From positions 95,379 through 159,378 of the forward strand of contig JAFQBB010000032.1 in assembly GCA_017416805.1 (NCBI GenBank): 64,000 bases of DNA, in the 5' to 3' direction. The translations under genes and the position numbers were made by a program. Below are positions 14,320 through 64,000 of the stretch, piece after piece. The notes beneath the pieces are model-generated. The model was not told the origin of the DNA, did not search any database, and worked only from the letters and a program-made list of their open reading frames with translations. Every line of letters begins with the position of its first letter. Positions within the stretch are counted from its first letter, which is position 1. This DNA comes from Bacteroidaceae bacterium. GTDB taxonomy: Bacteria > Bacteroidota > Bacteroidia > Bacteroidales > Bacteroidaceae.

Positions 14320-16908
14320 ATGAACTTTAACAATTTTACAATCAAATCGCAAGAGACTGTGCAAGAGGCCGTCAATATGGCTCGTGCCCGCGGACAACAG
14401 GCCATTGAACCAGCCCATTTGATGGCTGCAGTCTTCAAAGTGGGAGATACAATAACCAATTTCCTCTTTCAGAAAATGGGAGTGAATGCTCAACAGTTGG
14501 CGACATTGGTTGACCGTCAGTTGGATTCCCTTCCTAAAGTGAGTGGGGGAGAGCCTTATCTGAGTCGTGAAGCCAATGAGGTGTTGCAGCGTGCTGTGGA
14601 ACTCTCTAAGGAGATGGGCGACCAATATGTAGCCCTTGAGGAGTTGATATTGGCTCTTTTCGCGGTAAAGAGTACGGTGGCTACCATGTTGAAAGATGCC
14701 GGAGTGACGGAGAAAGAATTGCGTTCAGCCATAGCAGAACTGCGTAAGGGAGGGAAGGTCACTTCGCAATCAAGCGAAGACACCTATCAGTCGCTCAGCA
14801 AGTATGCCATCAATCTGAATGAGGCAGCCCGTTCGGGTAAACTGGATCCTGTGATTGGGCGTGATGAGGAGATACGCCGTGTGCTTCAGATATTGAGCCG
14901 TCGTACCAAAAACAATCCTATTCTGATAGGTGAGCCTGGTACAGGAAAAACTGCTATAGTGGAAGGACTGGCCCATCGTATATTGCGTGGCGATGTTCCC
15001 GAAAATTTGAAGGACAAGCAACTCTACTCACTCGATATGGGAGCATTGGTGGCAGGAGCCAAATACAAGGGCGAATTTGAAGAACGTCTCAAGGCTGTCA
15101 TCAATGAAGTCATAGGGTCTGATGGACAGATAATTCTCTTTATCGATGAAATTCATACCTTGGTAGGTGCAGGTAAAGGTGAGGGTGCTATGGATGCAGC
15201 CAACATTCTGAAACCGGCTTTGGCTCGTGGAGAACTCCGCTCCATTGGTGCCACGACATTGGATGAATATCAAAAATATTTTGAGAAGGATAAGGCTTTG
15301 GAACGCCGTTTCCAGACCGTGATGGTCAACGAACCGGACGTGCTCAGCACCATATCTATCCTGCGCGGATTGAAAGAGCGTTATGAGAATCACCACAAAG
15401 TGCGTATTCAAGATAATGCCATCATTGCCGCTGTGGAGTTGAGCAACCGTTACATTACCGAACGTTTTCTGCCCGACAAGGCCATTGACTTGATGGATGA
15501 AGCGGCTGCCAAGCTACGTATGGAGCGTGATTCTGTACCCGAAGAGTTGGATGAGCTGTCCCGCCGTCTGAAGCAGTTGGAGATTGAGCGTGAAGCCATC
15601 AAACGTGAAAAGGATGAGCCTAAGTTGCAACAGTTGAATAAAGAGATTGCCGAACTGAAGGAACAGGAAACGGCTCTGAAAGCCAAGTGGGAGAGTGAAA
15701 AGCAGTTAGTCAATAAGATTCAGTCCAACAAGCAGCAGATAGAGCAATTGAAGTTTGAGGCTGAACGTGCCGAGCGTGAAGGAGACTATGGTAAGGTGGC
15801 CGAGATACGATATGGACGTTTGCAGGCGCTGAATGATGAGATAGCTTCTGTCCAAGAGGAATTGAAGCAGATGCAGAGCGGTAATGCAATGATCAAGGAA
15901 GAGGTGACGGCTGATGATATAGCTGATGTTGTCAGCCGTTGGACAGGAATCCCTGTGAGCAAGATGTTGCAGAGTGAACGTGACAAGTTGTTGCATTTGG
16001 AAGAGGAACTTCATCTGCGTGTTGTCGGGCAAGATGAGGCTATCCGTGCTGTCAGCGATGCTGTACGTCGTAGTCGTGCAGGTTTGCAGGATCCACGTCG
16101 TCCTATTGGTTCCTTCATATTCTTGGGTACAACAGGTGTCGGTAAGACAGAACTGGCTAAGGCATTGGCAGAGTATCTTTTCGATGATGAACAATTGATG
16201 ACACGAATTGATATGAGTGAGTATCAGGAGAAACACAGTGTAAGCAGGCTTATTGGAGCTCCTCCGGGATATGTCGGTTATGATGAAGGTGGACAGTTGA
16301 CCGAAGCTGTACGGCGTAAACCCTATTCAGTGGTTTTGTTCGATGAGATAGAGAAGGCTCATCCCGATGTATTCAATATTCTGTTGCAAGTACTTGATGA
16401 TGGACGTCTGACAGATAATAAAGGACGGGTGGTGAATTTCAAGAACACCATTATCATCATGACCTCCAATTTGGGTAGCTCATACATACAGAGCCAGTTT
16501 GAAAGGATGACGGCTGGCAATCGTGAGCATCTTATTGAAGAGACGAAGAATGAAGTGATGGGCATGTTGAAGAAAACTATCCGTCCGGAATTCTTGAACC
16601 GTATTGACGAAACTATCATGTTTTTGCCATTGGATAAGGATGAAATTGAGCAGATTGTTCGTCTTCAGATTGAAAGCATACGTCGCATGTTGTCGGAAAA
16701 TGGAGTGAATCTTCACCTGACAGATGCCGCTGTGGCCTTTATAGCTTCTGCAGGGTATGATCCGGAGTTTGGTGCCCGTCCTGTAAAACGTGCCATCCAA
16801 CGCTATTTGTTGAATGACTTGTCTAAGAAACTCCTGGCGCAAGAGGTGGATAGTGCACGACCAATAACGGTAGATGTGGCCGGTGATGGACTAATGTTCA
16901 GGAATTAA
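14320..16908 (+). CDS. clpB: ATP-dependent disaggregase ClpB
   Basis: This 862-residue Hsp100 chaperone has a ClpN domain (about 1-145), a first AAA domain with Walker A GEPGTGKT (about 206-213), a long coiled-coil middle domain (about 405-525, rich in E/K/Q) and a second AAA domain with GTTGVGKT (about 606-613) and [16 protein letters not shown]. The C-terminal D2-small domain ends without an IGF/L loop, so it is ClpB, not ClpA/C. It dissolves protein aggregates together with DnaK. It is a single-gene unit with a purine-rich site (AAAGGAG) 12 bases before ATG, stronger than most here. A perfect 15-base hairpin follows the stop. Confidence 0.97.
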
Positions 16909-16912
16909 TAGA

Positions 16913-16945
16913 AAAGAGGGTGCGTTCCGCGAACGCACCCTCTTT
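16913..16945. terminator. Bidirectional terminator between clpB and rpsP
   Basis: A 15-base perfect stem (AAAGAGGGTGCGTTC, loop CGC) carries an A-run on the left and a T-run on the right. It lies between the convergent ends of clpB and rpsP, so it should stop transcription from both sides. Confidence 0.85.
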
Positions 16946-16982
16946 CTTGTTTGAGATAAAATTCTTTTTTAATAGTGCAGAA

Positions 16983-17525
16983 TTAAGCTTCTGCGGGAGC
17001 CTCTTCAGCCGGGGCTTCTGTAGCTTCTTCGGTTTCTGCTTCTGCTTCAGCCTTAGCTGCTGCCTCTGCAGCCTTCTTTTCAGCTACTTTCTTGGCGATT
17101 TCTTCGTTCACTTTCTTTTCTGCTTCCAAGCGTGCCTTAGCTTCAGCCTTCTTGGCCTCTTCGTTCTTGGCTACGAGTTGTGCCAATCCGTTCTGCTTGT
17201 CTTTTTTCCAAGCTTCGAACTTTGCCTGTGCAGCAGCTTCGTCGAAAGCGCCTTTCTTTACACCACCCTGAAGATGCTTCATCATGTAAACACCCTCGCG
17301 AGAGAGAATGTTACGTGCAGTGTCGGTAGGTTGTGCTCCACAATTTACCCAATACAAAGCACGCTCGAAATTCAAATCTACTGTGGCAGGATTGGTATTA
17401 GGATTGTAGGTACCAATCTTTTCAGTAAACTTACCATCACGTGGTGCTCTTGAATCAGCAATCACGATAGAGTAGAAAGCGTAGCCTTTACGTCCGTGAC
17501 GCTGCAATCTGATTTTTGTTGCCAT
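16983..17525 (-). CDS. rpsP: 30S ribosomal protein S16 with extended tail
   Basis: The first 85 residues ([20 protein letters not shown], then [15 protein letters not shown] and [20 protein letters not shown]) are S16, a primary 30S assembly protein. The remaining ~95 residues form a Lys/Glu/Ala-rich helical, probably disordered tail ([20 protein letters not shown], ending in acidic [16 protein letters not shown]). Such tails are usual for S16 in Bacteroidetes and absent in E. coli (82 residues). It is transcribed alone from a strong promoter at 17588-17618. Confidence 0.96.
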
Positions 17526-17587
17526 TTTTTTTGTTTTTTTTATTGATTAATGATTTGAATTGTGCTAATAACCCGTATTAGCGGGCG

Positions 17588-17618
17588 CAAAATTACTGCT
17601 TTATTTTTATATGACAAA
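17588..17618 (-). promoter_or_regulatory. Strong promoter for rpsP
   Basis: The reverse strand has TTTG (17615-17618), 19 bases, then TAATTTTG (17588-17595), an exact Bacteroidetes consensus. The ATG is 62 bases downstream. Confidence 0.7.
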
Positions 17619-17953
17619 GTATCCGGTGCATTTTTTGTAAAGTTTGGGGATTTAAAGAGGGAAGAGTGTGGTTGTTTGAGAAGTTGGAGTGTAGGGGACA
17701 AATGTGAGTTCCAAACTCTCATCTGTTTTTTAAGTTGAGCTTGTTGGTCTTATATATAATAAGGTGTTCAAGCTTTGCAGGCTTAACCTTCAGGGATTAA
17801 AGAAATGCTGTCTTTTAGCATTATTTCTCATATTTTGCAGGTTTTACAGTCTGTTGAGCCAAAAAGAAAAACAGATGAAACAAAATGCAAAACAGTGTAA
17901 CAGATAGATAAATCGTGTAAACAAGGTTGAAAACCTGTTAGGAAGTTAATCTC

Positions 17954-17961
17954 TAATTTTG
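17954..17961 (+). promoter_or_regulatory. -7 box for the FAS1/SusCD operon
   Basis: TAATTTTG lies 104 bases before the first PUL gene. No TTTG is found at the correct -33 distance, which fits a promoter activated by the hybrid two-component regulator encoded downstream. The remaining 540-base gap back to rpsP shows no gene. Confidence 0.45.
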
Positions 17962-18065
17962 CATCAGGAAAAATTTCGTTTCTTCCAATTTTTGAATACA
18001 AAGCGGGAGGATGTGATTTTGAAGAAAAAAAGAAAACATAAATAAACAAGAAAAACCAAAAAGTA

Positions 18066-20615
18066 ATGAAAACCAAGAAACACATCTGGAGGTTTGGTCG
18101 GCATTGGATGCTGGCAGCCGGAGTACTGTTGGCTGGTGGTTTTGTTTGCTCTTGTGAAGATGAGTATGATTTGGATGAGCGTACTCCTGACGGATGGGGT
18201 GCCAGTATCTATAGTTGGCTCGACGAACAAGGCAATTTCACCAATACGGTGCGCATGATTGAAAGCCTGAATTATCAGGATGTTTTGGCAAAAACGGGAT
18301 CAAAAACCTTGTTTGTGGCCGATGATGCTGCTTACGAACGTTTTTACCGTAACAATCCATGGGGAGTTTCCAGTTATGATCAACTTACTACGGCGCAGAA
18401 GCGCTTGTTGTTGTTCGGAAATATGCTCGACAATTCCATGCAGTTGAGCAACCTTCCGAGTACGGCAGGTACACCGCCTACCGAGGGTGACTGTATGCGG
18501 CGCTATTCATCGACTTCCATTTTCGATTCTGTGCCAGTACTGCTAAAGGATCAAATGCCCGACAATATCTATTGGCGTCGCTATAGGGAAAGCAATAAAC
18601 CTATGGTATGTATGCAGGACAATACCAATACGCCTCTTCTGTTCTTCATTGAGAAACAGTTAGTAAACAAGAAGATTACGAACGATGATTACAATTTCCT
18701 TTTCAATTACAAAACGAACCGCCAGCCTGGTGATGCCAGTGTAAATGGTGTGACTGTAACGGAAGGAAATATACGTTGCTCCAACGGATTTATTCATCGC
18801 ATGGCTGAAGTTATCAGTCCGTTGCCTAACATGGCAGAGGTGATAGCCTCTAAGCCTAATACCAGTGCTTACAATGAGTTGTTGGAACGTTTTTGTGCGC
18901 CTTTCCCTGACCGGAATCCGACAGCTAACGGTTCGGTAACCCAGCAGTATAACCTTGATTACGGGACTGCAGTAGATACGGTCTTTGTCAAACGTTTCTT
19001 TTCGGAAAAATCAGAAGGAGGTTCTCCTGTAAACCTTACGCCTGATGGGAAAGTGGTCAGTGAATTTGAAATGTTGAAATACGACCCGGAATGGAACTCT
19101 TATTATGCAGGTATCGACGAACAAGGTGCAGAAATGGCCATGCAACGCAACATGGGTGTGATGATGGTTCCTTCCAATGAGGCTTTGGATCGTTATTGGA
19201 ACGATGGTGCTGGTCGCGTATTGAAGGATTATTATGGCTCGTGGGATAAGGTTCCTAACGATATGATAGCTGAACTTATCAATGTCAACATGTTGGAATC
19301 ATTCATTGGTTCTGTCCCCTCCAAGTTTGATGGGATCTTGAATGATGCCAACGACCCGATGGGCGTTTCTGTTAAACATGTGGATTCTGTATTCTTAGCC
19401 TGCAATGGAGCTGTTTATCTGACCAATTATGTTTATTCTCCGACCTTGTTCATCAGTGTGCTCTATCCGGCTTGGATTAATGAGACTATGCATATCCTGC
19501 GTTGGGGTATCCAACAGTGTCAATACAATGTTTATTTGAACTCACTGAATGCAGACTACAGTTTCTTTATCCCAACGAATAAGGCTTTGTTGGAATATAT
19601 AGATCCTGTTTCGTATGGAAAAGAGGGTAAGACACAATTGTTCCGTTTCCGTTATGACAAAAAAGCTCAGACTGTTAAGGCCAGTATTTGGAATTATGAT
19701 ATGGCTACGCGGACTACAACCGACAGTATCGGTGAAGCAAGTAGTGAGCAGATTGTAAACAGATTGAGAGATATTCTGGAAACTCATATTGTCATTGGCA
19801 ATGTGGAAGATGGACATACCTATTACCGCACGAAGGGTGGTACGGAAATCCGTGTAAACAATGTGGCCGATGGAGAAAAAGGTATGACTGTTGAAGGTAG
19901 TTTCCAAATAAATGAGGGCGATCCTATCCCTGTCGTTCAGATTTACGACCAGACGAAGGATGGCGGAAATGGTAAAGCTTATATTTTGGACGGTGAGCCT
20001 ATCATGGGAACTCGTCGGACCGTGTATGATGTGTTGGCTGAACATGAAGAGTTCTCCAAGTTCTACGAATTGATGCAGGGTAGTGCTCTGTTTGAGAGAG
20101 TCCATAATAAGAAGTATCCGTGCGGTGGCAATAATATTTCTGTCTTCAATACTTATCATTACACAGTTTATGTACCGACAAACGAAAGTATTGAGGCCTT
20201 GCAGCGCAGCGGAAAGCTCTCTTCATGGGAAAACGTGGCTGCTCATAAGGATAATGAAGATTTTGCAGCAGCGACAAGAGATTCGTTGGGTATTGTCAAT
20301 TTCTTGCGTTACCACATTCAGGATAATGCTTTGTTTATTGGTGCAGAGCCAGAGAAGGAGAACTTTGAAACTTCGCTTATGAACGAGCAGACCAAACGTT
20401 TCTACCGATTGGAGGTCAATTCGAATGGAAGTGGTATCTCTATTGAAGATGGTGCAGGCAACACTCGTCAGGTCCTGACTTCGGATGAAAGTCTTTACAA
20501 CCTTATGGCAAGAGAGTACCAGTATAACGAAGGAGATGCAGCATCGGCTTCCCATATTGAAACAACGTCATCAGCTGTTATTCATCTCATTGACGGACCG
20601 CTGTTGGTTAAGTAA
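18066..20615 (+). CDS. Large FAS1 (fasciclin)-domain lipoprotein
   Basis: The 849-residue protein has a lipoprotein signal peptide with lipidation at about C30 (FVCSC, followed by acidic EDEYDLDE, the export signal that places Bacteroides lipoproteins on the cell surface). FAS1 units can be recognised at about 45-260 (SIYSWLDEQGNFTNTVRMIE, TLFVADDAAYERF), about 450-620 (YSFFIPTNKALLEYID) and about 650-849 (YTVYVPTNESIEALQ, ending VIHLIDGPL). FAS1 domains mediate adhesion or ligand binding. It is the first gene of the PUL, 32 bases before susC, in a position where surface glycan-binding proteins often lie. Glycan binding is inference. Confidence 0.8.
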   Translation: MKTKKHIWRFGRHWMLAAGVLLAGGFVCSCEDEYDLDERTPDGWGASIYSWLDEQGNFTNTVRMIESLNYQDVLAKTGSKTLFVADDAAYERFYRNNPWGVSSYDQLTTAQKRLLLFGNMLDNSMQLSNLPSTAGTPPTEGDCMRRYSSTSIFDSVPVLLKDQMPDNIYWRRYRESNKPMVCMQDNTNTPLLFFIEKQLVNKKITNDDYNFLFNYKTNRQPGDASVNGVTVTEGNIRCSNGFIHRMAEVISPLPNMAEVIASKPNTSAYNELLERFCAPFPDRNPTANGSVTQQYNLDYGTAVDTVFVKRFFSEKSEGGSPVNLTPDGKVVSEFEMLKYDPEWNSYYAGIDEQGAEMAMQRNMGVMMVPSNEALDRYWNDGAGRVLKDYYGSWDKVPNDMIAELINVNMLESFIGSVPSKFDGILNDANDPMGVSVKHVDSVFLACNGAVYLTNYVYSPTLFISVLYPAWINETMHILRWGIQQCQYNVYLNSLNADYSFFIPTNKALLEYIDPVSYGKEGKTQLFRFRYDKKAQTVKASIWNYDMATRTTTDSIGEASSEQIVNRLRDILETHIVIGNVEDGHTYYRTKGGTEIRVNNVADGEKGMTVEGSFQINEGDPIPVVQIYDQTKDGGNGKAYILDGEPIMGTRRTVYDVLAEHEEFSKFYELMQGSALFERVHNKKYPCGGNNISVFNTYHYTVYVPTNESIEALQRSGKLSSWENVAAHKDNEDFAAATRDSLGIVNFLRYHIQDNALFIGAEPEKENFETSLMNEQTKRFYRLEVNSNGSGISIEDGAGNTRQVLTSDESLYNLMAREYQYNEGDAASASHIETTSSAVIHLIDGPLLVK

Positions 20616-52019: not shown

Positions 52020-52109
52020 ATGCGAATAGCAGTCCTTACCCTCCCGCTCCATACCAACTATGGAGGGATACTTCAGGCGTATGCTCGGCGCAACCCTTTC
52101 CAAAAATGA
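52020..52109 (+). pseudogene. Truncated polysaccharide pyruvyl transferase gene (5' end only)
   Basis: ATG 52020 opens a frame whose first 22 residues contain TLPLHTNYGGILQAYA, the N-terminus of polysaccharide pyruvyl transferase family proteins (usually 350-400 residues). The match stops abruptly at about 52085, where the sequence passes into the 167-base direct repeat, and the frame closes at 52109. The rest of the gene has been lost, presumably by a deletion or by cassette exchange at the repeat. Confidence 0.7.
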
Positions 52110-52266
52110 CGTGTTGTCTTGGCAACAAAGATTGCTACTATTAAACATGCAATTTCGCCATCCTTTGAACCTTGAACATGGAACTTTGAACTTTGGTCTG
52201 AATTAGTTCGAGCATCGTCATCGTTGCCCCTTGCCCGTTGTTCCTTTTAATTTTTAACTTTTAATT
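52100..52266 (+). repeat. 167-base direct repeat, copy 1
   Basis: This segment matches 53282-53448 with only two mismatches (at 52113 and near 52239) and lies 1182 bases upstream of it. It includes the 'tttgaaccttgaacatgg' repeat and the GTTCGAGCATCGTCATCGTTG block also found after upxY. The two copies bracket the small gene plus DUF6169 gene. Confidence 0.9.
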
Positions 52267-52307
52267 ATTAATTCGGAACGTCGTAGCTCTCATCAGCTTT
52301 ACGCAGT

Positions 52308-53281: not shown

Positions 53282-53448
53282 CCAAAAATGACGTATTGTC
53301 TTGGCAACAAAGATTGCTACTATTAAACATGCAATTTCGCCATCCTTTGAACCTTGAACATGGAACTTTGAACTTTGGTCTGAATTAGTTCGAGCATCGT
53401 CATCGTTGCCCCTTGCCCGTCGTTCCTTTTAATTTTTAACTTTTAATT
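53282..53448 (+). repeat. 167-base direct repeat, copy 2
   Basis: This is the second copy of the 52100-52266 repeat, with two mismatches. The following 53449-53718 stretch has no gene but holds two degenerate copies of the 'ttcagttcctcaccaaaaactg' element (about 53489-53513 and 53651-53675) also seen after upxY, each followed by an 'acgattcctt'-like block. Confidence 0.9.
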
Positions 53449-53718
53449 CTTTAATTTTTAATTATAAAATCAAATCGAAAGCGATTTTATTTCAGCTCCC
53501 TTGCCCAAAACTGCATTCCATATACGAATCTTTGAGGGGTAGCCTGATTAAGAACAAATCAATCTCTCAACAGCCTTTGGCCTCTCTGCATTCTTTACTA
53601 GCAACTTTTTCGTGGTGAAGAGGCTTTGGTGTTGGGTTTAATAAATAAATCTTTCAGTTCTTCACCAGAAACTGCACCCTTTTCACGATTCCTTGGGATA
53701 GGGTTTTATACTTCTTTT

Positions 53719-56266: not shown

Positions 56267-57379
56267 ATGAAAAAAATTGCAATTATAGGTGGTAGCTATC
56301 TTCAGTTGCCTGCTGTGCAGAAAGCCAAGGAACTTGGCTATGAAGTTCATTGTTTTTCATGGGCGGACGGAGCTGCATGTGCTGAGGTGGCAGATTTTTT
56401 CTATCCTATCTCTATCATAGAGAAAGAAGAGATACTTGAAAAGTGCCGTGAAATAAGAATCGATGGCATCACCACTATCGCATCCGATGTGGCTGTTCTT
56501 ACCGTCAACTACGTAGCAGAACATTTAGGCTTGATTGGAAACTCTGATAAATATTCAACCACTGTTACCAATAAATACGAAATGCGACAATGCTTCGCAC
56601 ATAATGATGTCCCTTCTCCTCGTTTCTGTATTGCAGACAAGAACGATGGATATAATATTACAGGATTTCGTTTCCCTTTGATTGTAAAGCCTACTGACCG
56701 TTCTGGCAGCCGAGGAGTGGAGAAAGTGCTCGATCCTGTACAATTAGAGAAAGCCATTGTGCGTGCCAAAGCCGAATCGTTCAGTCATGCTGCTATTATT
56801 GAAGAATATGTAACGGGGCGTGAAGTCAGTGTGGAATCCATTTCATTCGAAGGAAAACATCATGTCCTTCAGATAACGGATAAAGTGACTACGGGTGCTC
56901 CTTATTTTGTAGAGTTGGAACACCATCAGCCTTCTTCATTAAGTGAAGATATACAGATACGCATCCGTGAAATCGTTATGAAAGCTCTTGATGCATTACA
57001 TATACAATACGGAGCTTCACATTCTGAATTGAAAATTACAGATGAAGGTGATATTCGTGTGATTGAAATTGGTGCACGTATGGGGGGGGATTTTATTGGC
57101 TCCAATCTGGTACAACTTTCTACAGGTTATGATTTCCTTGGGGCAACTATACAAGTTGCTATGGGGGAATTCATTGAACCCCAGATCACAGAACATAGTT
57201 ATTCTGGAGTCTATTTCTTATCAAAAGAAACGGCGAATCTGAAGACTGTTATTGAGAATTGGAAAGATTATTCTGAGATTGTAGAAGCAGAAATTACCGA
57301 TTCTGAGTTGCGTAGCATAGAGTGTAGTGCGGATAGAAGTGGGTATTTTATTTATAAGGCAAATAAAAAGTTTTGTTGA
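56267..57379 (+). CDS. ATP-grasp family ligase
   Basis: The 370-residue protein has an N-terminal Rossmann-like pre-ATP-grasp domain (KKIAIIGGSYLQLPAVQKAK) and an ATP-grasp core: FPLIVKPTDRSGSRGVEKV, AIIEEYVTGREVSVES, and the metal-binding segment DIRVIEIGARMGGDFIGSN. Such enzymes form amide bonds between a carboxylate and an amine through an acyl phosphate. In a polysaccharide locus it may attach an amino acid to a uronic acid, or make a dipeptide-like substituent. A run of eight G lies at 57082-57089, in the codons for RMGGD. The substrate is unknown. Confidence 0.85.
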   Translation: MKKIAIIGGSYLQLPAVQKAKELGYEVHCFSWADGAACAEVADFFYPISIIEKEEILEKCREIRIDGITTIASDVAVLTVNYVAEHLGLIGNSDKYSTTVTNKYEMRQCFAHNDVPSPRFCIADKNDGYNITGFRFPLIVKPTDRSGSRGVEKVLDPVQLEKAIVRAKAESFSHAAIIEEYVTGREVSVESISFEGKHHVLQITDKVTTGAPYFVELEHHQPSSLSEDIQIRIREIVMKALDALHIQYGASHSELKITDEGDIRVIEIGARMGGDFIGSNLVQLSTGYDFLGATIQVAMGEFIEPQITEHSYSGVYFLSKETANLKTVIENWKDYSEIVEAEITDSELRSIECSADRSGYFIYKANKKFC

Positions 57380-57380
57380 A

Positions 57381-58028
57381 ATGAAGAGAATTGCGATTAT
57401 AGGTTCAGGGGCATTTGCACAACAAATATGTCAGTATATAAAATATGACTCTATAGAAGCATATGAAATTGTTGGATATTTTGATGATTATGCAGAAATA
57501 GGTGCAAGTATAAATGGATATCCTGTACTAGGTAAAATTGAAAATGTAGTTCATGAATATTCAAAATCACTATTTGATTGCGTCTTTATAGCTATCGGAT
57601 ATAAGCATTTTCATTTTAAAGAAGAACTGTATAATATTTTACATATTCAGAATAAAATTCCATTAGGGAATATTATTAGTCCTAGTGCATTTATTCATCC
57701 AACTTCACAGATAGGTAATGGTGTTTTAATCAGTAGTCATACAATTATTAATATGAATGCAGTTGTTGGCGATAATACATGTATTACTCTCCGTTCTATT
57801 GTCAATCACGATTGTTTTGTTGATAAACATTCGTTTTTATCAACAAATGTAGCAACTGCTGGACATGTGCATATAGGTAAGCGATGTTTTATTGGTGTTG
57901 GTTGTATTGTTTCTGATAATATAAGTATTTGTGATGATGTATGGCTATCTCCGGGTTGTGTTGTTGCAAAAAAAATAGAAGAGTTTGGACAATATATTGG
58001 TTATTCAATGAAACTTTCAAAGATTTAA
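57381..58028 (+). CDS. NeuD/PglD-like sugar O- or N-acetyltransferase
   Basis: The start at 57381 (MKRIAIIGSGAFA) gives 215 residues. An N-terminal PglD-type domain (KRIAIIGSGAFAQQICQYI) is followed by a left-handed beta-helix of hexapeptide repeats (NIISPSAFIHPTSQIGNGVL, VHIGKRCFIGVGCIVSDNIS, ISICDDVWLSPGCVVAKKI). The usual catalytic His is probably in the NHDCFVDKHSF region. The family acetylates amino sugars or sialic acids on nucleotide carriers. From here on the DNA is clearly more AT-rich than upstream genes, a sign of separate origin. Confidence 0.85.
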   Translation: MKRIAIIGSGAFAQQICQYIKYDSIEAYEIVGYFDDYAEIGASINGYPVLGKIENVVHEYSKSLFDCVFIAIGYKHFHFKEELYNILHIQNKIPLGNIISPSAFIHPTSQIGNGVLISSHTIINMNAVVGDNTCITLRSIVNHDCFVDKHSFLSTNVATAGHVHIGKRCFIGVGCIVSDNISICDDVWLSPGCVVAKKIEEFGQYIGYSMKLSKI

Positions 58029-58030
58029 AT

Positions 58031-59143
58031 ATGGCATTTTTTAATTTTAAAAATATAAAAGTGGCTGGAGTAGCATGCGCTGTTCCTACCAACGAAGTGA
58101 AGACAGATTCTTACAAACCGTTGTTTGGGGATGAGGAAGTAGAAAAGTTTATGGAGATGACAGGGGTACGTGCATCTCATCGTACATCAGAACATCAAAC
58201 TTGCTCTGATTTAGGGTATAGGGCTGCTTCTGAATTGTTGACGAAAAAACAAATAAATCCGAATGAAATTGGAGCCTTGATTTTTGCATCACATTCACCG
58301 GATTATCGTCGTCCATCTACTGCATTTGTTTTGCAATATCGTTTGGGCATTCCTAAGGAAGCGGTATGTTATGATATCAGTTTAGGATGCTCTTCATTGG
58401 TGGTGGGTATGCAAACCATTGCTTCCATTATGAATACCAGTGATATAAAGAAAGCATTGTTGTTTGTAGGTGATACTGCTGGTAAATCCGTATATCCGGA
58501 AGACCGTAGTTCGGTAATGTTATTTGGTGAAGCGGGAGCGGTCATGTTATTGGAGAAAACTGATAATGAGACTGATCAAATTAATGCATTGGTTAGAAGT
58601 GATGGTACAGGTTTTAAATATATGATTGTACCGGGTGGTGGCTATCGTAACCTCCATGCTAATGAAGAAGTGGTAATGTGTGAGGATGGTAATCCCAGAA
58701 CCTTGATGAATTCATTTATTCAAGGTACTTCAGTTTTTACTTTTACCATATTTGATGTTCCTCGTTTGATTAAGGATTTCTTTGCTCAAACAGAAACAAC
58801 ACCAGATTATTACGATTGCTTTGCATTCCATCAGGCGAACCTTTATATATTGAAGCAGATTGCCAAGAAAACAAAGATTAACTTTGAACGGATGCCAATT
58901 ACTTTAGACCGTTATGGTAATACATCGGGTGCATCGGCCATTGTTTCTTTGTGTGATAAATATGGTGAAAGTTGTGAAAGCAAAACCATTAAAGTAATGG
59001 CTTGTGGTTTTGGTATTGGTATTTCATTAGGAGCGACCTCATTTGAAATCAATACAGACGATATTTTTCCTATCTATGAAGATGACCAGGTGTTTGAAGA
59101 TGGCTTGATAACCAATCCAGATCAATTGTACGAAAAAAAATGA
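58031..59143 (+). CDS. Beta-ketoacyl-ACP synthase III-like protein
   Basis: The start at 58031 (MAFFNFKNIK) gives 370 residues. The thiolase-fold catalytic triad is complete: C120 in YDISLGCSSLV, H267 in FAFHQAN, N297 in DRYGNTSGAS. KAS III enzymes condense acyl-CoA with malonyl-ACP or transfer acyl groups. Close paralogues act outside fatty acid synthesis. It overlaps the adenylating ligase by 4 bases (ATGA) and shares an operon with two carrier proteins and two SDR proteins, so it probably builds a short 3-oxoacyl chain for a polysaccharide substituent. Confidence 0.88.
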   Translation: MAFFNFKNIKVAGVACAVPTNEVKTDSYKPLFGDEEVEKFMEMTGVRASHRTSEHQTCSDLGYRAASELLTKKQINPNEIGALIFASHSPDYRRPSTAFVLQYRLGIPKEAVCYDISLGCSSLVVGMQTIASIMNTSDIKKALLFVGDTAGKSVYPEDRSSVMLFGEAGAVMLLEKTDNETDQINALVRSDGTGFKYMIVPGGGYRNLHANEEVVMCEDGNPRTLMNSFIQGTSVFTFTIFDVPRLIKDFFAQTETTPDYYDCFAFHQANLYILKQIAKKTKINFERMPITLDRYGNTSGASAIVSLCDKYGESCESKTIKVMACGFGIGISLGATSFEINTDDIFPIYEDDQVFEDGLITNPDQLYEKK

Positions 59144-60690
59144 TAACGAATATTCTGACATATTTAGAAAACTCGGCATCCAAATGGGCGGATAAGACAG
59201 CCGTAGCCGATGACAAAAATTCATTGACTTTTGCTCAATGGAATCAATACTCACGCAATATTGGTACTGCAATCAGCAAAGCTTCTAATAAAGCATACCG
59301 TAAACCTGTATTAGTGTTTGTAGATAGACGTATAGAGGGATTGGTGGGGTTCATGGGAGTTGCACAAAGTGGCAACTTTTATGTACCAATCGACTGTAAG
59401 ATGCCTGACCAACGTGTGAAACTTATCTCTGATGTTTTGAATCCGATTGCTGCTATTACTGTAACGGCTGCTGATGAAAAAACGTTGGATTTGATTGATT
59501 TCCAAGGTGTGCGATTCAAGTATGAGGACGTTATTCAAAATGAAGCGGATGATATCTTGCTGAATGAAATCCGTGAACAGATGATAGATACCGACCCTGT
59601 TTATTCTATCTTTACCAGTGGCTCTACAGGTGTCCCCAAAGGAGTCGTTATTGCTCAAAGGGGGATGGTGGATTTGGCAGAATGGTTGGTTGATACTTTC
59701 AACTTTACAGAAAAGGATGCATTGGGTAATCAAACCCCATTCTATTTCGATGGTTCTGTAAAAGATATCTGCATTTGTTTGAAGAGTGGAGCTACCTTGA
59801 ATATTATCGGTAAAAAGTATTTTACTTTCCCGAAATTGATAATTCCTTTTTTGAATGACCGTAAGATTACCGCTATATTATGGGCTACATCTGCCATTGT
59901 TTTAATCGGTAATAGCGATATTCTTTCAGTGAATTTGCCGGAGCATTTGCGCTTAGTCACCTTTGCAGGAGAAGCTATGCCAGCCAAGCAATTGAAGGTT
60001 TGGATGAACAAATTGCCTGATGTAAAGTTCGTAAATCTTTATGGTCCGACTGAGATTACGGTTGATTGTACTTATTATGAAGTAAACCGTGAATTTGGTG
60101 ATGATGAATTTATTCCTATCGGAAATGCTTGTCATAACAAGGGTATTTTAGTATTCAATGATGATAACCAGCTTGTTAAAGTAGGTGAAACAGGTGAACT
60201 TTGCGTAAGAGGTACAGGAGTTGCTTTGGGTTATTATAACAATAAAGCCAAGACTCAGGAAGTATTTGTTCAGAATCCGCTACACGATTTGTATGAAGAT
60301 AAAATATATCGTACTGGGGATATTGTCAAATACAATGAACTTGGTGAAATAGAATTTGTATCACGCAAGGATTTCCAGATTAAACATAAGGGTAATCGTA
60401 TAGAAATGGGTGAAATAGAAGTGGCTATCAATTCCATTCCTAATATAACCAATGCGGCCTGTATTTTTGACCAACCAAATGATAAAATCGTTCTTTATTA
60501 TACCACGAGTGATGGTCAAGAAATGGATATCATTAATTTGGTAAAAGATAAGATACCTGTATATATGTTCCCGGAAGTGATTAATCATCTGAAGGTTATG
60601 CCTTATAACATGAATGGTAAAATAGACCGTATTAAATTAAAAGAAATATACATAAATCAACAACAGACAGAATGCGTAATATCCTATTGA
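59140..60690 (+). CDS. Amino acid-adenylating ligase (DltA/NRPS A-domain-like)
   Basis: The 516-residue ANL enzyme has core motifs in order: A3 FTSGSTGVPKGVV (158-170), A4 FYFDGSVKD with Asp204 (201-209), A5 LYGPTEITVDC (300-310), A7 YRTGDIVKY (390-398), A8 hinge KHKGNRIEMGEIE and A10 NGKIDR with Lys494. The A4 Asp is the residue that binds the alpha-amino group in amino acid-activating domains, and the surroundings resemble DltA (FSFDLSVMD), so an amino acid such as alanine is a likely substrate. It should load one of the carrier proteins downstream. There is no fused carrier or condensation domain. Confidence 0.88.
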   Translation: MITNILTYLENSASKWADKTAVADDKNSLTFAQWNQYSRNIGTAISKASNKAYRKPVLVFVDRRIEGLVGFMGVAQSGNFYVPIDCKMPDQRVKLISDVLNPIAAITVTAADEKTLDLIDFQGVRFKYEDVIQNEADDILLNEIREQMIDTDPVYSIFTSGSTGVPKGVVIAQRGMVDLAEWLVDTFNFTEKDALGNQTPFYFDGSVKDICICLKSGATLNIIGKKYFTFPKLIIPFLNDRKITAILWATSAIVLIGNSDILSVNLPEHLRLVTFAGEAMPAKQLKVWMNKLPDVKFVNLYGPTEITVDCTYYEVNREFGDDEFIPIGNACHNKGILVFNDDNQLVKVGETGELCVRGTGVALGYYNNKAKTQEVFVQNPLHDLYEDKIYRTGDIVKYNELGEIEFVSRKDFQIKHKGNRIEMGEIEVAINSIPNITNAACIFDQPNDKIVLYYTTSDGQEMDIINLVKDKIPVYMFPEVINHLKVMPYNMNGKIDRIKLKEIYINQQQTECVISY

Positions 60691-61484
60691 TTACTTCTTT
60701 GAAAGAAGTTGATATATTGGAATGTCAATATAAAAAAAGAAACACAGTTAGTAATAATTATCTACTTATAAATGAATATGAATCGTTAATAGCCAAAAGA
60801 GAATTATTCTATTGCAAAGGTAATGAGAATGTTGTATTTTTAGTAAAAAAACCTAATTGTTATAGGATATATTATTATATTAACAGTTTTAACGAAACCA
60901 TATCATTACCTTTTAATAATACATACCTTATTGAAATATTATTTAGGAGTAAATTAGAACGCATAAAAGAAGAAATTGATTATTGGCTAAAGAATGGATT
61001 TAAGATTAATCTTGTTAGAGATTTGCTTAAGGCTAAACATTCTGATTTGACTTTAGCATATCATAGAGTAGACGGTTTAGCTATAAATTTGGCAAAAGAT
61101 ATAGATGAAATAAAATATGCCTGTACATTATTCAATTCCACTTTTGATAAATATTCAGCAGATTATATCGAAGTGAGTGAGTACCAAGGCTTGTTAAAAA
61201 AACAAAACATATTAATTGCAAAATTAAATGGTGAGAATGCTGGTGCAATGCATTTTAGGATAGAACACTCAGTTGTATGGGGTGCACATTTAGCGGTTGA
61301 TTCTAAATTTAGAGGAAAACACATCGGTGTTGAATTATACAATCATTTTCTAAACTTAAATAAAATCACTGATAATACAATCTATTGTCATTGGACTCAA
61401 CACCAAAACAAACAAACGATGGGTATGTATTTAAAAATGGGCTTTAAATATACAGGTAAATCAACAATATCATTAATAAAATAA
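60672..61484 (+). CDS. Two-part protein with C-terminal GNAT acetyltransferase domain
   Basis: The 270-residue protein starts inside the end of the ligase gene (19-base overlap). Residues about 1-130 match no domain I know. About 135-270 form a GNAT fold with LIAKLNGENAGAMHFRIE and the acyl-CoA/ACP pantetheine loop region AVDSKFRGKHIGVELYNHF, ending NKQTMGMYLKMGFKYTGK. This is the likely transferase that moves the carrier-bound acyl or aminoacyl group to a sugar amine. The gene is very AT-rich. Confidence 0.75.
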   Translation: MRNILLITSLKEVDILECQYKKRNTVSNNYLLINEYESLIAKRELFYCKGNENVVFLVKKPNCYRIYYYINSFNETISLPFNNTYLIEILFRSKLERIKEEIDYWLKNGFKINLVRDLLKAKHSDLTLAYHRVDGLAINLAKDIDEIKYACTLFNSTFDKYSADYIEVSEYQGLLKKQNILIAKLNGENAGAMHFRIEHSVVWGAHLAVDSKFRGKHIGVELYNHFLNLNKITDNTIYCHWTQHQNKQTMGMYLKMGFKYTGKSTISLIK

Positions 61485-61489
61485 TTAGT

Positions 61490-61711
61490 ATGGAAAAGTT
61501 AATGCAAATTTTACAGGATATTCGTCCTGATGTAGATTTTGAAAATGAAACAGCTTTAATAGACGATGGTATTCTCGATTCATTCGATGTAGTATCAATT
61601 ATATCTGAATTGGATGATGTTTTTGGAGTACAGATTCGTATTACAGAACTAGATCCTGAAAATTTCAATTCTGCAGAATCTATTTGGAATTTGGTGCAAA
61701 ATTTGAAGTGA
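61490..61711 (+). CDS. Acyl carrier protein (first)
   Basis: The 73-residue acidic four-helix protein carries the phosphopantetheine attachment site S31 in GILDSFDVVSI, followed by the recognition helix SIISELDDVFG. It should carry an acyl or aminoacyl thioester made by the adjacent ligase or synthase. Its stop overlaps the start of the next gene (TGATG), implying coupling. It is clearly not the housekeeping AcpP (no DSLDTVELVM motif). Confidence 0.88.
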   Translation: MEKLMQILQDIRPDVDFENETALIDDGILDSFDVVSIISELDDVFGVQIRITELDPENFNSAESIWNLVQNLK

Positions 61712-62391
61712 TGCTGAATCCAATGGAATTAACTGGTAAGCACATCCTTTTTGTTGGTGGTTCTACCGGAATTGACAAATCAGTTATTCTGAGATTAAAG
61801 GATTTAAATGCCATAATATCCTTATATGAAGAATTTGATATTTCTATTATAGAAAAGGATATAAAGGAACTTATAAAAAAAGATGGGTCTTTTGATGGTG
61901 TTATTTTTGCAATCGTACATAGTGATTTCAAACCCCTTAATTTTGTTAAACCAGATAATGTATGTTCAATAATGAACGATAATTTTGGTGTTTTTGTTGA
62001 GATTATTCGTGCGTTAAAGAAAAATCGTGGTTTAAATGATGGTGCTAGTATCGTAACTCTATCTTCAATCAGTAGTATCCGCGCAATGAAAGCAAAAATG
62101 GCTTTTAGTGCTTCTAAAGCTGCATTGGATGCATCTGTTAGATGTTTGGCTATAGAGTTATTGGATAAAGGCATTCGTATTAATTCGGTTCAAAAGGGTT
62201 TTGTAGAGGAGGATTTTGCAAAAGGGCATATACAAGATATTAATGCTATAAATGACGGCTCAATAAACAAATCAATACTTGGAGTAACTAAAGCGGATGA
62301 AATCGCAAATCTTATAGCCTTTCTTTTAAGTGATGCGACTCAAACAATAACAGGTACATCAATTGTAATCGATGGAGGATATACATTATGA
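61711..62391 (+). CDS. SDR-fold protein lacking the catalytic Tyr
   Basis: The start at 61711 (MLNPMELTGK) gives 226 residues; a TTG upstream lies inside the carrier protein gene. The short-chain dehydrogenase fold is clear (HILFVGGSTGID, IVTLSSISSI, KAALDASVRCLAIELLDKGI, IVIDGGYTL), but the catalytic YxxxK reads F132-SAS-K136, with Phe for Tyr (codon TTT). The glycine motif ends TGID instead of (S/T)GIG, and the usual NxVxPG reads NSVQKG. It may be an inactive partner of the second SDR or a scaffold. It overlaps the next gene by 4 bases. Confidence 0.85.
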   Translation: MLNPMELTGKHILFVGGSTGIDKSVILRLKDLNAIISLYEEFDISIIEKDIKELIKKDGSFDGVIFAIVHSDFKPLNFVKPDNVCSIMNDNFGVFVEIIRALKKNRGLNDGASIVTLSSISSIRAMKAKMAFSASKAALDASVRCLAIELLDKGIRINSVQKGFVEEDFAKGHIQDINAINDGSINKSILGVTKADEIANLIAFLLSDATQTITGTSIVIDGGYTL

Positions 62392-63146
62392 AAGGAATAG
62401 AATTTATAGGAAAACGATTTGTTGTATCGGGAGCTGGAGGTATCGGTGCTGAAACGGCAAAATTGTTGAACAGTTTAGGTGCTAGTATCATTCTTCTTGA
62501 TATTAATGAAGAGAATTTAAACAACACTCTTTTATCATTAGAGGGAACTAATAATAGAGCATATATTTGTGATTTTTCCAATGTGGACGGTATAGAGCAA
62601 GTGGTAAAACTGATTGCTACAGAGAATGGAGCTGTGGACGGTTTTGTACATTGTGTAGGTGTTGGTTCGGTAAGGCCACTGAAGATGTCAAAATATGACT
62701 TTATGCTCAAAGTGATGAACATCAACTTTTTTTCATTCGTAGAGATTGTAAGATGTCTGAGCATTAAAGGCCGTTATAACTCTAACGGTATGAATATCGT
62801 TGGAGTTTCTGCTTTAGGAGCTTATTTGGGAAATTCCACAAAAACAGCTTATTGTGCATCTAAAGGCGCAATGAACGCAGCTATAAGATGTTTGGCTAAG
62901 GAATTGGCACCGAAGAATATACGTGTAAATGCGGTAGCTCCTGGTGTGACTGATACCCCGATGGCAAGAGTTGCAGAAGATTATGGTGCGGATTCCGATG
63001 AACACAAAATGATTTTGGCTCGTCAGTATATGGGGGTATGCCAGCCTCTTGATATCGCCAACACAATAGCATTCTTGATGAGCGATATGAGTCGTATGAT
63101 TACAGGTAGTTGTGTAGCAGTAGATGGTGGAAAATTGTCATCATAA
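62388..63146 (+). CDS. SDR family 3-oxoacyl reductase-like enzyme
   Basis: This 252-residue classical SDR has an intact nucleotide motif VSGAGGIGAE (about 13-22), catalytic residues S141, Y155 and K159 (TAYCASKGAMNAA), NAVAPGVTDTP and the C-terminal SRMITGSCVAVDGG. It resembles FabG-like reductases and could reduce a carrier-bound 3-oxoacyl group made by the KAS III-like protein. It is coupled to the Tyr-less SDR upstream, so the two may form a mixed oligomer. The second carrier protein follows after 36 bases. Confidence 0.88.
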   Translation: MKGIEFIGKRFVVSGAGGIGAETAKLLNSLGASIILLDINEENLNNTLLSLEGTNNRAYICDFSNVDGIEQVVKLIATENGAVDGFVHCVGVGSVRPLKMSKYDFMLKVMNINFFSFVEIVRCLSIKGRYNSNGMNIVGVSALGAYLGNSTKTAYCASKGAMNAAIRCLAKELAPKNIRVNAVAPGVTDTPMARVAEDYGADSDEHKMILARQYMGVCQPLDIANTIAFLMSDMSRMITGSCVAVDGGKLSS

Positions 63147-63182
63147 AGATAATGTATAAGTTTAATAAAATATTTAAAAATT

Positions 63183-63404
63183 ATGACACAAGAAGAAAAA
63201 ATTGTATTGTTGGAAGACATGCTTGAATTGGATGGTGGTTCACTTACTCCAGAAATGGAACTTGCATCCATCGATGAATATGACTCAATGGCAAAACTGT
63301 CACTGATTGTATTGATGGATGAAGAGTGTGGTAAGAAACTAACTGGTGAACAAATTCGTGAGTTCAAAACTGTTGCAGATGTGCTCAATTTTATGGGTGA
63401 ATGA
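63183..63404 (+). CDS. Acyl carrier protein (second)
   Basis: The 73-residue acidic protein has the attachment Ser in DEYDSMAKLSLIVLMDEECG (S35), then helix IREFKTVADVLNFM. It differs strongly from the first carrier protein (different recognition helix), so the two probably serve different enzymes, for example one for the aminoacyl and one for the acyl chain. Its stop overlaps the start of the metallo-beta-lactamase-fold gene (TGATG). Confidence 0.87.
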   Translation: MTQEEKIVLLEDMLELDGGSLTPEMELASIDEYDSMAKLSLIVLMDEECGKKLTGEQIREFKTVADVLNFMGE

Positions 63405-64000
63405 TGCTGCGAGTAAAGAAAGTAGTTGGAAGTATTCTTTCTTCGAACATGTATATCTTGTTTGAAGAAAGTTCTTCTGATTGTTGGATTGTTGATATTG
63501 GTGATTTTTTTGCTTTAAAAAGAACTTTACCTACTTTGGCTCATGTGAAAGGACTTTTTTTGACACATGGACATTATGATCACATGGCAGGTATCAATGA
63601 TTTTCATAATCTGTTTCCTGAAGCTGTAATCTATACTTCTAAGTATGGTAAAGAACAATTGTATTCAGATAGGAAGAATTTCTCTTACTATCATGAAAAA
63701 TCAGTTAAATTTGAAGGAGATGAATCCTCAATTCATCTATTGAGTGATGGAGATGAAATTGTTTTGTTCAAAAATGTGGTTTTAAAAATATTGGCAACTC
63801 CAGGACATTGTCCAAGCTGTTTGTCTTTTTTTACGTCACAAGATCTATTTACTGGAGATAGTTTCATTCCTGGAGCAAAGTTGGTCTCTCGATTACCAGG
63901 GGGTAATAAAATACAGGCAAAGAAATCTTTAGAGCGTATATTGCAACTATCACAAAATAGAACAATATATGCTGGACATGATATCGACAATTGGAATAGT
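63404..64000 (+). CDS. Metallo-beta-lactamase-fold hydrolase (partial, runs off the window)
   Basis: The first 199 residues are visible, and the frame is open to the last base. The metal site is complete so far: T-HGHYDH (H55, H57, D59, H60), H135 in TPGHCPSC, D152 in FTGDSFIPG and a late His in YAGHD. The fold matches glyoxalase II-like thioester hydrolases. Coupling to a carrier protein (TGATG) suggests it releases or proofreads carrier-bound thioesters. It could also be a lactonase or another hydrolase. Confidence 0.87.
   Translation, partial: MLRVKKVVGSILSSNMYILFEESSSDCWIVDIGDFFALKRTLPTLAHVKGLFLTHGHYDHMAGINDFHNLFPEAVIYTSKYGKEQLYSDRKNFSYYHEKSVKFEGDESSIHLLSDGDEIVLFKNVVLKILATPGHCPSCLSFFTSQDLFTGDSFIPGAKLVSRLPGGNKIQAKKSLERILQLSQNRTIYAGHDIDNWNS

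Follow-up and report, generated by a model that had tools for sequence, protein, structure and literature searches.

A nine-gene cassette in a Bacteroidaceae polysaccharide locus as a candidate assembly line for amino-acid-derived acyl side chains

The window, the whole 64,000-nucleotide stretch analysed here, ends where its contig ends (base 159,378), and its last part, positions 57381–64000, is occupied by nine adjacent open reading frames on the same (+) strand. The sequence-only reading had described these genes and assigned them to families; all are open as described and belong to the families named, as judged with Pfam and NCBIfam. By their coordinates eight of the ORFs are complete and the last one runs off the contig. 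Most of the genes had been said to overlap by 1–19 bases, and five of the eight junctions do overlap, with a range of 4–19 instead (4, 19, 4, 4 and 4 bases), the other three being gaps of 2, 5 and 36 bases. Upstream in the window lie genes for a NusG-like regulator, a UDP-sugar dehydrogenase, an Acyl_transf_3 protein and a Polysacc_synt_3 protein (the latter matched at 3.7e-05 and 23.5 bits, the cut-off being 23), which place the cassette in a glycan biosynthesis locus. The contig stops before any sugar aminotransferase appears; the aminotransferase of the related locus L071 has two matches in the genome of the window (30–38%), both on other contigs.

The first gene (57381–58028) codes for a NeuD/PglD-type sugar N-acyltransferase, which is proposed to perform the last step, from acyl-ACP to an amino sugar. 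With 146.9 bits against TIGR03570, below the 160.8 cut-off, it is a near relative of the NeuD/NnaD acetyltransferases and may itself use another acyl donor. The histidine of its NHD motif aligns with that of EHE in PglD, which we take to be catalytic, and the protein varies between loci, sharing 24–30% identity with its counterparts in the close set. The KAS III (58031–59143) has an intact Cys-His-Asn triad, as do all 16 close sequences; in a wider set of 82 the triad is intact in all but one, a fragment that ends before the Asn. The third gene (59140–60690) encodes a DltA-like amino acid–carrier protein ligase, a stand-alone A domain, referred to below as DltA. It matches TIGR01733 above the cut-off, with a DltA model ranking second, and scores below the cut-offs of two DltA models (292.5 against 476 bits and 281.6 against 559.85 bits). 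Its top solved relatives are the linear gramicidin synthetase LgrA and tyrocidine synthase; LgrA leads by a two-domain sum, and when domains are compared singly tyrocidine synthase, GrsA and DltA score at least as well. The pocket residues, at positions assigned by hand with the GrsA numbering, are D-G-K-L-T-A-L-V-D-K. Glutamate is not claimed as the substrate: K at 239 and D at 331 resemble a glutamate code, at hand-mapped positions.

The ligase is followed by a tandem-GNAT protein (60672–61484), whose model also picks up mycothiol synthase and other acetyltransferases of the tandem type, and which is proposed to N-acylate, or cap, the aminoacyl group on the first carrier. This carrier, ACP1 (61490–61711), is DltC-like (GILDSFD), with its carrier serine conserved in 16 of 16 sequences. 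Two SDR proteins come next: SDR1 (61708–62391), a pseudo-reductase with a conserved Tyr-to-Phe change that removes the catalytic Tyr (FSASK), and SDR2 (62388–63146), a 3-oxoacyl-ACP-reductase-like protein with an intact YCASK motif. SDR1 directly precedes SDR2 in seven of seven cases (the window and six loci). The second carrier, ACP2 (63183–63404), is of the FAS type (YDSM). Pfam gave no hit for it, whereas NCBIfam ACP models did (best 1.6e-7), and the carrier serine is present. The last gene (63401–64000) encodes an MBL-fold hydrolase, a candidate editing or release thioesterase, and is truncated where the contig stops; its 199–200 codons compare with 199 and 202 codons for the counterparts in L071 and L073. 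A KAS III with an intact triad, an ACP, a 3-oxoacyl reductase and a NeuD/PglD-type transferase are all present together in the window.

An ATP-grasp ligase gene (ATP-grasp_4; 56267–57379, +) ends one base upstream of the cassette, and the nearest solved relative of its product by sequence is an L-amino acid ligase. It was rejected as a core member, since KAS III, SDR or ACP genes lie near only one of eight order-level relatives (L058), and is regarded as a possible accessory outside the conserved cassette. In L030, relatives of the ATP-grasp and NeuD proteins are paired with KAS III. Neither this ligase nor the missing Tyr of SDR1 had figured in the sequence-only reading.

When the gene order was sought elsewhere, all nine families were found in the same order in Odoribacter laneus (L071), and eight of the nine, in the order of the window, in Bacteroides stercorirosoris (L073); the set is therefore not a chance arrangement. 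Variants occur in 13 further loci, giving 15 close relatives. KAS III, DltA and ACP1 have mean identities of 72–79% with largely diverged third codon positions, and the GNAT and the sugar acyltransferase vary. KAS III of the window is 84–88% identical to those of L071–L074, L076, L077 and L079. Recent transfer is an unlikely source of this identity because third codon positions disagree, those of KAS III and DltA showing 34–50% agreement in the six loci compared.

In 13 of the 15 close relatives DltA follows KAS III at a distance of no more than 150 bases, and a single KAS III clade (support 0.999) holds the window and 14 of the 15, with no member from loci lacking DltA. In more distant DltA loci the KAS III is 25–40% identical to that of the window, mostly around 30%. 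A search started from KAS III, independent of DltA, returned at E<=1e-100 two of 393 genomes of the order, that of the window and G653, both with DltA adjacent; the locus found in G653 (L153) is identical in sequence to a part of L074, and the same search in the family of G653 returned one of 15 genomes, G653 itself. ACP1 is more closely tied to DltA than KAS III is: in L083, DltA and ACP1 are 72% and 82% identical to those of the window and KAS III only 34%. L041 has DltA and ACP1 without a KAS III or SDR match.

The sequence-only reading had tied the set to polysaccharide loci, and this stood for most of the close relatives, 13 of the 15 having polysaccharide-type genes. Twelve carry a glycosyltransferase, sugar-transferase, sugar-aminotransferase-like or UDP-sugar dehydrogenase gene in the fetched stretch (L079 and L081 by an aminotransferase-like hit only), and L078, the thirteenth, has flippase-like and sugar-dehydratase genes; L074 and L076 show none of these markers in the fetched stretch. 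A NeuD-type or other N-acyltransferase gene stands just before KAS III in L071, L072, L084, L085, L074 and L080, and in the first four of these the cassette is flanked by a Bac_transf sugar transferase and a DegT aminotransferase. This setting, together with the acyltransferase next to KAS III, argues against a product that is a diffusible or lipid-bound small molecule, for which the capsule locus would be incidental. That explanation, which we hold to be improbable, draws on gene types common to natural-product clusters and on L039, which lies outside polysaccharide loci: there the genes around a minimal DltA-GNAT-ACP1-KAS III unit are of GH35, MFS and helicase types, as judged from three flanking proteins. 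L038 is probably a second such case, resembling L039 by flanking ORF lengths alone.

The surroundings of DltA were surveyed in 89 loci, with the best 80 of 401 confirmed places examined and L066 excluded because its contig ends 46 bases past DltA. Cap and outlet classes were assigned with fixed thresholds and position limits, by which the GNAT genes of L073, L080 and others were missed; purpose-built models found them. KAS III is nearby in 47 of the 89 loci and a DltB-like MBOAT in 24, and the two are never found together (0/89); in 18 loci neither outlet was found, some of these being on short contigs (for example L089, L116 and L137). ACP2 accompanies KAS III in 34 of 47 loci and MBOAT in 0 of 24, a count made with two query sequences that may be too low (ORFs of 69–71 codons in L065 and L068 went unmatched); with these queries ACP2 was not found in L079 and L081. 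The proposed aminoacyl carrier and extension carrier are separable modules.

These modules could also work in parallel, each making its own side chain: DltA, GNAT and ACP1 an N-acyl-aminoacyl group, and KAS III, SDR and ACP2 a 3-hydroxybutyryl-type group, placed at separate positions of the polysaccharide. Two carriers fit two products, and both halves of the line also exist apart, as DltA-cap-ACP1-MBOAT in loci such as L087 and as KAS III-SDR without a DltA match in L020–L022, of which L022 also has ACP2 and NeuD. Moreover, the parts of the published accounts considered below name no amino acid ligase for the hydroxyacyl amides of Pseudomonas syringae and Flavobacterium psychrophilum. We nevertheless consider parallel chains unlikely. 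In 41 of the 47 KAS III loci no more than 150 bases separate this gene from DltA or ACP1, a closeness that favours one combined chain; a specific KAS III clade accompanies this DltA; and the cassette in the window has only one NeuD-type acyltransferase, although others may lie past the contig end.

The gene slot after DltA bears on how an amino acid would enter a combined chain. The longest ORF just after DltA belongs to the GNAT family in 46 of the 89 loci and to the formyltransferases in 10, the window included, as classified by models built partly from the sequences that they classify; with Pfam alone, these 89 loci yield 34 cases of Acetyltransf_1 and 10 of Formyl_trans_N. ACP1 directly follows the cap gene in 33 of 45 GNAT loci and in six of 10 formyltransferase loci, and does not in the remaining 12 and four. 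In L072, whose KAS III is 88% identical to that of the window, a formyltransferase stands between ligase and carrier, and cap and carrier are fused as GNAT-ACP1 in L122 and as formyltransferase-ACP1 in L038. Since a formyltransferase replaces the GNAT in this slot in six loci and each type of cap is fused once to ACP1, the GNAT probably caps a carrier-bound amino acid. The argument about the cap rests on L072 and the two fusions.

Some relatives of KAS III are acyltransferases (CerJ-like), and the enzyme could in principle pass a capped aminoacyl group between carriers or onto a sugar without chain extension; such an ester or amide transfer could likewise use two carriers. We regard this role as very improbable, given the triad intact in 81 of the 82 KAS III sequences, the SDR matches in all 15 close loci and in 40 of the 47 KAS III loci, and the presence in some loci of FabD. 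The latter occurs in three of the 15 close relatives, L072 (339.1 bits, equivalog cut-off 260.9) and, as Acyl_transf_1 matches, L075 and L083, with further tblastn matches in L040 and L101; none was found among the window proteins scanned, the window ending at the MBL gene.

The broad proposal of the sequence-only reading, that a carrier-bound 3-hydroxyacyl and/or aminoacyl group is transferred to a surface sugar, holds on support that is all comparative, and its "and/or" can now be narrowed toward one combined chain. We consider it somewhat more probable than the contrary that the cassette is a small type II line that turns an amino acid and one malonyl unit into a single acyl side chain on an amino sugar of a surface polysaccharide. 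DltA would adenylate the amino acid and load it onto ACP1, where the tandem GNAT, or the formyltransferase in some relatives, would cap its amino group. KAS III would condense the capped aminoacyl-ACP1 with malonyl-ACP2, the malonyl group being supplied by FabD, which is borne by the cassette in some relatives. The SDR2/SDR1 pair would then reduce the ketone to leave an N-acyl-4-amino-3-hydroxyacyl chain on ACP2, the MBL protein would clear wrong or stalled thioesters, and the NeuD-type enzyme would place the chain on the amino group of a nucleotide-activated sugar. Several observations speak against this path: the tighter link of ACP1 than of KAS III to DltA, the halves that occur apart, the cap genes that ACP1 does not directly follow, the loci in which ACP2, or KAS III and SDR, gave no match, the low KAS III identity of more distant DltA loci, the setting of L039, and a contig that stops short of a sugar aminotransferase. 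The reactions and their sequence, the amino acid and the acceptor are all inferred; what is observed are the families, the active-site residues kept or lost, the gene order, the exchangeable cap, the fusions, the separate outlets and the co-occurrence of ACP2 with KAS III.

A wider reading is possible, in which we place somewhat less than even confidence: some Bacteroidales surface polysaccharides may carry statine-type amide side chains (4-amino-3-hydroxy acids bearing an N-formyl or N-acetyl group) produced by a type II line, aminoacyl-primed and N-capped, whose conserved engine of ligase, carrier and KAS III would have been joined from Dlt-like aminoacylation and O-antigen acyl modules and combined with exchangeable cap, chain-length and acceptor enzymes. 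No statine-type substituent or route was found in the open-access literature searched, with queries that did not include the word statine. Gut Bacteroidales respond to hosts and phages by varying the sugars on their surface. If the proposal is true, some of these bacteria also decorate such sugars with acyl groups that derive from amino acids and are extended with malonate, a mixed chemistry more familiar from natural products. Dozens of loci (the 47 of 89 DltA loci with KAS III) would then have a function that can be tested, and D-alanylation-type ligases would be linked to capsule synthesis.

No Bacteroides capsule system with this gene set had been known to the sequence-only reading, and no description of the set was found in the open-access literature, where the only precedents found were those named below; the set itself is not unique to the window. 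The Dlt D-alanylation system consists of DltA, DltC, DltB and DltD. The cassette shares with it a stand-alone DltA-type A domain and a DltC-like carrier, and differs in having a cap, and KAS III as its outlet in place of MBOAT and DltD; no MBOAT was found with Pfam among the 14 window proteins scanned, the contig ending after the MBL gene. LgrA N-formylates a carrier-bound amino acid, which resembles the proposed cap slot, but LgrA and tyrocidine synthase are multidomain nonribosomal peptide synthetases without KAS III. The orf1–orf3 genes of the Aeromonas group II flagella glycosylation locus encode an ACP, a 3-oxoacyl-ACP reductase and an AMP-dependent synthetase, as found together in the window; the part of the account cited here names no KAS III or second ACP and has luxE/luxC (PMC7874193).

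Closer to the extension half are two systems, both of the polyketide kind only, that make hydroxyacyl amides. The wfpC–wfpG genes of F. psychrophilum, also in the Bacteroidota, are O-antigen R-group genes of a polysaccharide whose structure has been determined, and are predicted to assemble a 3,5-dihydroxyhexanoyl group and attach it as an amide to Qui2NAc4N (PMC6519341). Like the window they comprise 3-ketoacyl-ACP synthases (two), an ACP, a 3-ketoacyl-ACP reductase and a PglD homologue, whereas an amino acid ligase, an N-cap enzyme, a second carrier and an MBL protein are not named in the cited part of that report (PMC6519341). The vioS/vioR/acp/vioB viosamine island of P. syringae makes N-(3-hydroxy-1-oxobutyl)viosamine, and a vioR mutant lacked the modified viosamine by mass spectrometry (PMC3927599). 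It shares with the window KAS III, reductase, ACP and an acyltransferase (VioB), but serves a flagellin glycan, and its seven genes, as listed in the cited part, include no ligase, cap or second carrier (PMC3927599). Both systems, as described there, offer a precedent for amide-linked acyl groups made by a KAS, a reductase, an ACP and a PglD/VioB homologue (PMC6519341, PMC3927599).

The window is the final 64 kb of a contig of 159,378 bases, one of 64 in the assembly, and positions 57381–64000 are filled by nine genes, all on the forward strand. The families assigned by the sequence-only reading, a NeuD-like acetyltransferase, KAS III, a DltA-like ligase, a GNAT protein, a carrier (ACP1), two SDR proteins (SDR1 and SDR2), a second carrier (ACP2) and an MBL-fold hydrolase, were confirmed by Pfam and NCBIfam, ACP2 by NCBIfam only; ACP1 is DltC-like and ACP2 of the FAS type. 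Most genes do overlap, as it had stated (five of eight junctions), although by 4–19 rather than 1–19 bases; the other three junctions have gaps of 2, 5 and 36 bases. The contig end truncates the MBL gene at approximately full length. The G+C content of the cassette is 34%, versus 44% in the first 45 kb of the window. On the 5′ side of the cassette lie a NusG-like regulator of the UpxY type, a UDP-sugar dehydrogenase, an Acyl_transf_3 protein, a flippase-type protein (weak match) and an ATP-grasp ligase, closest by sequence, among solved structures, to an L-amino acid ligase. A 170-base direct repeat (52100–52269 and 53282–53451, 98% identical) flanks a 168-codon ORF, and a short open frame from 52020, resembling the start of a polysaccharide pyruvyltransferase, ends directly before the first copy.

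Close DltA homologues (E ≤ 1e-90) were found in 5 of 301 genomes of a family-wide sample and in 7 of 247 of an order-wide sample, the window being counted in both. Six order loci were obtained besides the window; the contig of one (L066) stops at DltA, and the remaining five, detected through DltA alone, all contain KAS III, SDR, MBL and NeuD homologues together with a cap enzyme, encoded after DltA and proposed to N-acylate aminoacyl-ACP1. Among the four family loci, L040 contains cap, ACP1, KAS III, SDR, ACP2 and MBL genes, L038 and L039 only cap, ACP1 and KAS III, and L041 DltA and ACP1, with no KAS III or SDR match nearby. In L041 (6233–10700), the DltA pocket code is DIFFWALLDK, a 132-codon ORF between DltA and the ACP1 homologue is probably the single Glyoxalase_4 match, and a 262-codon ORF lies 3′ of the carrier.

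A DltA-alignment scan of 84,980 species genomes confirmed 401 places, and the best 80 of these include 15 loci (L071–L085, the close set) whose DltA is 63–74% identical to that of the window. Twelve are titled Bacteroidales or member of Bacteroidales, the others Bacteroidia (L075), “bacterium P3” (L076) and Bacteroidetes (L077). The gene order recurs: L071 (Odoribacter laneus) has all nine families in the order of the window, and L073 (Bacteroides stercorirosoris) has eight, from KAS III to MBL. Between SDR2 and ACP2, L072 and L074 carry an inserted second KAS III plus SDR, and L082 a KAS III alone; L075 has a second KAS III and extra SDR and ACP genes in a different order. ATPgrasp_ST matches occur in 8 of the 15 loci, in several directly 3′ of ACP1. 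In L079 (12691–21524), KAS III-DltA-GNAT-ACP1 is followed by eight such matches in a row, in ORFs of ~384 codons of which the last is truncated where the locus ends; the arrangement is reminiscent of a ligase ladder that would build a repeated amide or peptide.

The cap position was assigned to the longest ORF whose start falls between 75 bases before and 400 bases after the stop codon of DltA. Of the 89 loci surveyed (the best 80 of 401 plus nine from the genome searches), L089 had no such ORF; with the window included, 89 proteins were obtained. They comprise 46 of the GNAT family, 10 formyltransferases, 10 PLP decarboxylase-like proteins, six KAS III, four MBOAT, four matching an AMP-ligase model (one weakly) and nine left unassigned. 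ACP1 is directly 3′ of the cap in 33 of 45 GNAT loci and 6 of 10 formyltransferase loci, and is fused to GNAT in L122 and to a formyltransferase in L038. L072, otherwise among the nearest relatives, has a formyltransferase in place of GNAT. The predicted structure of the window GNAT is of high confidence (mean pLDDT 94.0) and most resembles tandem-GNAT proteins, at moderate TM-scores (0.4–0.6); VipF acetyltransferases take the first five places. Lower-ranked matches include mycothiol synthase, an acetyltransferase acting on the amine of a cysteinyl group, and MprF/A-PGS matches are weaker. The pocket residues of the window DltA gave no confident amino acid assignment. Ten loci (L110, L114, L116, L124–L127, L133, L137 and L146) combine the pocket code DVK..S.CNK with an Orn/DAP/Arg decarboxylase-like PLP gene after DltA, and in nine of the ten an ACP1 match lies after that gene; the enzyme possibly makes the unusual amine loaded there.

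Near DltA, the outlet in the 89 loci is KAS III in 47, a DltB-like MBOAT in 24 and neither in 18, never both; as related loci share ancestry, these counts are not independent events. In 41 of its 47 loci, KAS III is no more than 150 bases away from DltA or ACP1. ACP2 was found in 34 of 47 KAS III loci versus none of 24 MBOAT loci. The window KAS III groups with those of 14 of the 15 close loci in a single clade (support 0.999), and KAS III sequences from more distant DltA loci branch elsewhere. L072 (above the equivalog cut-off), L075 and L083 each carry a FabD gene, and further FabD matches were obtained by tblastn in L040 and L101. ACP2 co-occurrence, the clade and FabD together suggest that ACP1 belongs with the ligase and ACP2 with the extension step, the likely reaction being extension with malonate. 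The KAS III Cys-His-Asn triad is present in 16 of 16 close sequences, and the carrier serine in 16 of 16 ACP1 and 12 of 12 ACP2; acyl transfer without any extension appears very improbable. SDR2 has an intact catalytic motif. In SDR1 (61708–62391), the catalytic Tyr is Phe in all seven sequences (window and six loci) and the glycine motif of the window protein is degraded, with a long conserved stretch still present; all 18 further SDRs checked, from related and more distant loci, keep the Tyr. SDR1 may thus be a conserved non-catalytic partner of SDR2. Over its rivals we favour, as somewhat probable, a linear path in which capped aminoacyl-ACP1 would be extended by KAS III with malonyl-ACP2, reduced and transferred to an amino sugar; two parallel side chains, each with its own carrier, are in our view unlikely. 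DltA-GNAT-carrier-MBOAT loci (L086–L088, L090, L094, L095 and L097, L094 with a formyltransferase), in which the carrier is DltC-like and which are titled Bacillota or Bacillota groups, are apparently a Dlt variant that places N-capped aminoacyl groups on a surface polymer.

When pairwise identities within the close set are averaged over the sequences that exceed an identity floor chosen for each gene, the means are 79% for ACP1 (n = 16), 76% for KAS III (n = 15), 72% for DltA (n = 16), 66% for ACP2 (n = 12), 59% for SDR2 (n = 8), 58% for SDR1 (n = 7), 48% for NeuD (n = 7), 44% for MBL (n = 10) and 43% for GNAT (n = 13). Recent transfer is an unlikely source of the KAS III and DltA identity, because their third codon positions agree by only 34–50% in comparisons of the window with six loci; the identity therefore reflects selection. 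The window NeuD shares 24–30% identity with its counterparts in the close set. With ACP1, KAS III and DltA constant and NeuD variable, sequence comparison suggests a fixed acyl chemistry and an exchangeable acceptor enzyme.

Whether the gene set occurs mainly away from polysaccharide loci was checked by single-sequence searches, which found polysaccharide markers in 12 of the 15 close loci; in L078, genes of this type were detected by Pfam, and in L074 and L076 these searches showed no markers. Five 8-kb control stretches from the first 40 kb of the window, shorter than the loci, gave no marker matches. An exception is L039, where a minimal DltA-cap-ACP1-KAS III unit is surrounded by GH35, MFS and helicase genes. 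A small-molecule product, as opposed to a polysaccharide substituent, is in our judgement quite improbable. In L071, NeuD has a sugar transferase gene immediately 5′ of it, and MBL has immediately 3′ of it a DegT aminotransferase gene (LegC family as best model, under cut-off), as would be expected of a cassette that acylates an amino sugar ahead of its transfer to the lipid carrier. Near the L078 cassette (14766–19007), an ATP-grasp gene stands between two PGA_cap (capsule synthesis-type) genes.

The combined set is without description in the open-access literature searched, in agreement with the earlier claim that no described Bacteroides capsule system is known to have two carriers and such a set. 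Amino sugars bearing polyketide-only amide side chains are already known from Flavobacterium psychrophilum (PMC6519341) and Pseudomonas syringae (PMC3927599); compared with these two systems, as far as the available parts of the reports describe them, the new elements are the amino acid ligase, the exchangeable N-cap and the second carrier.
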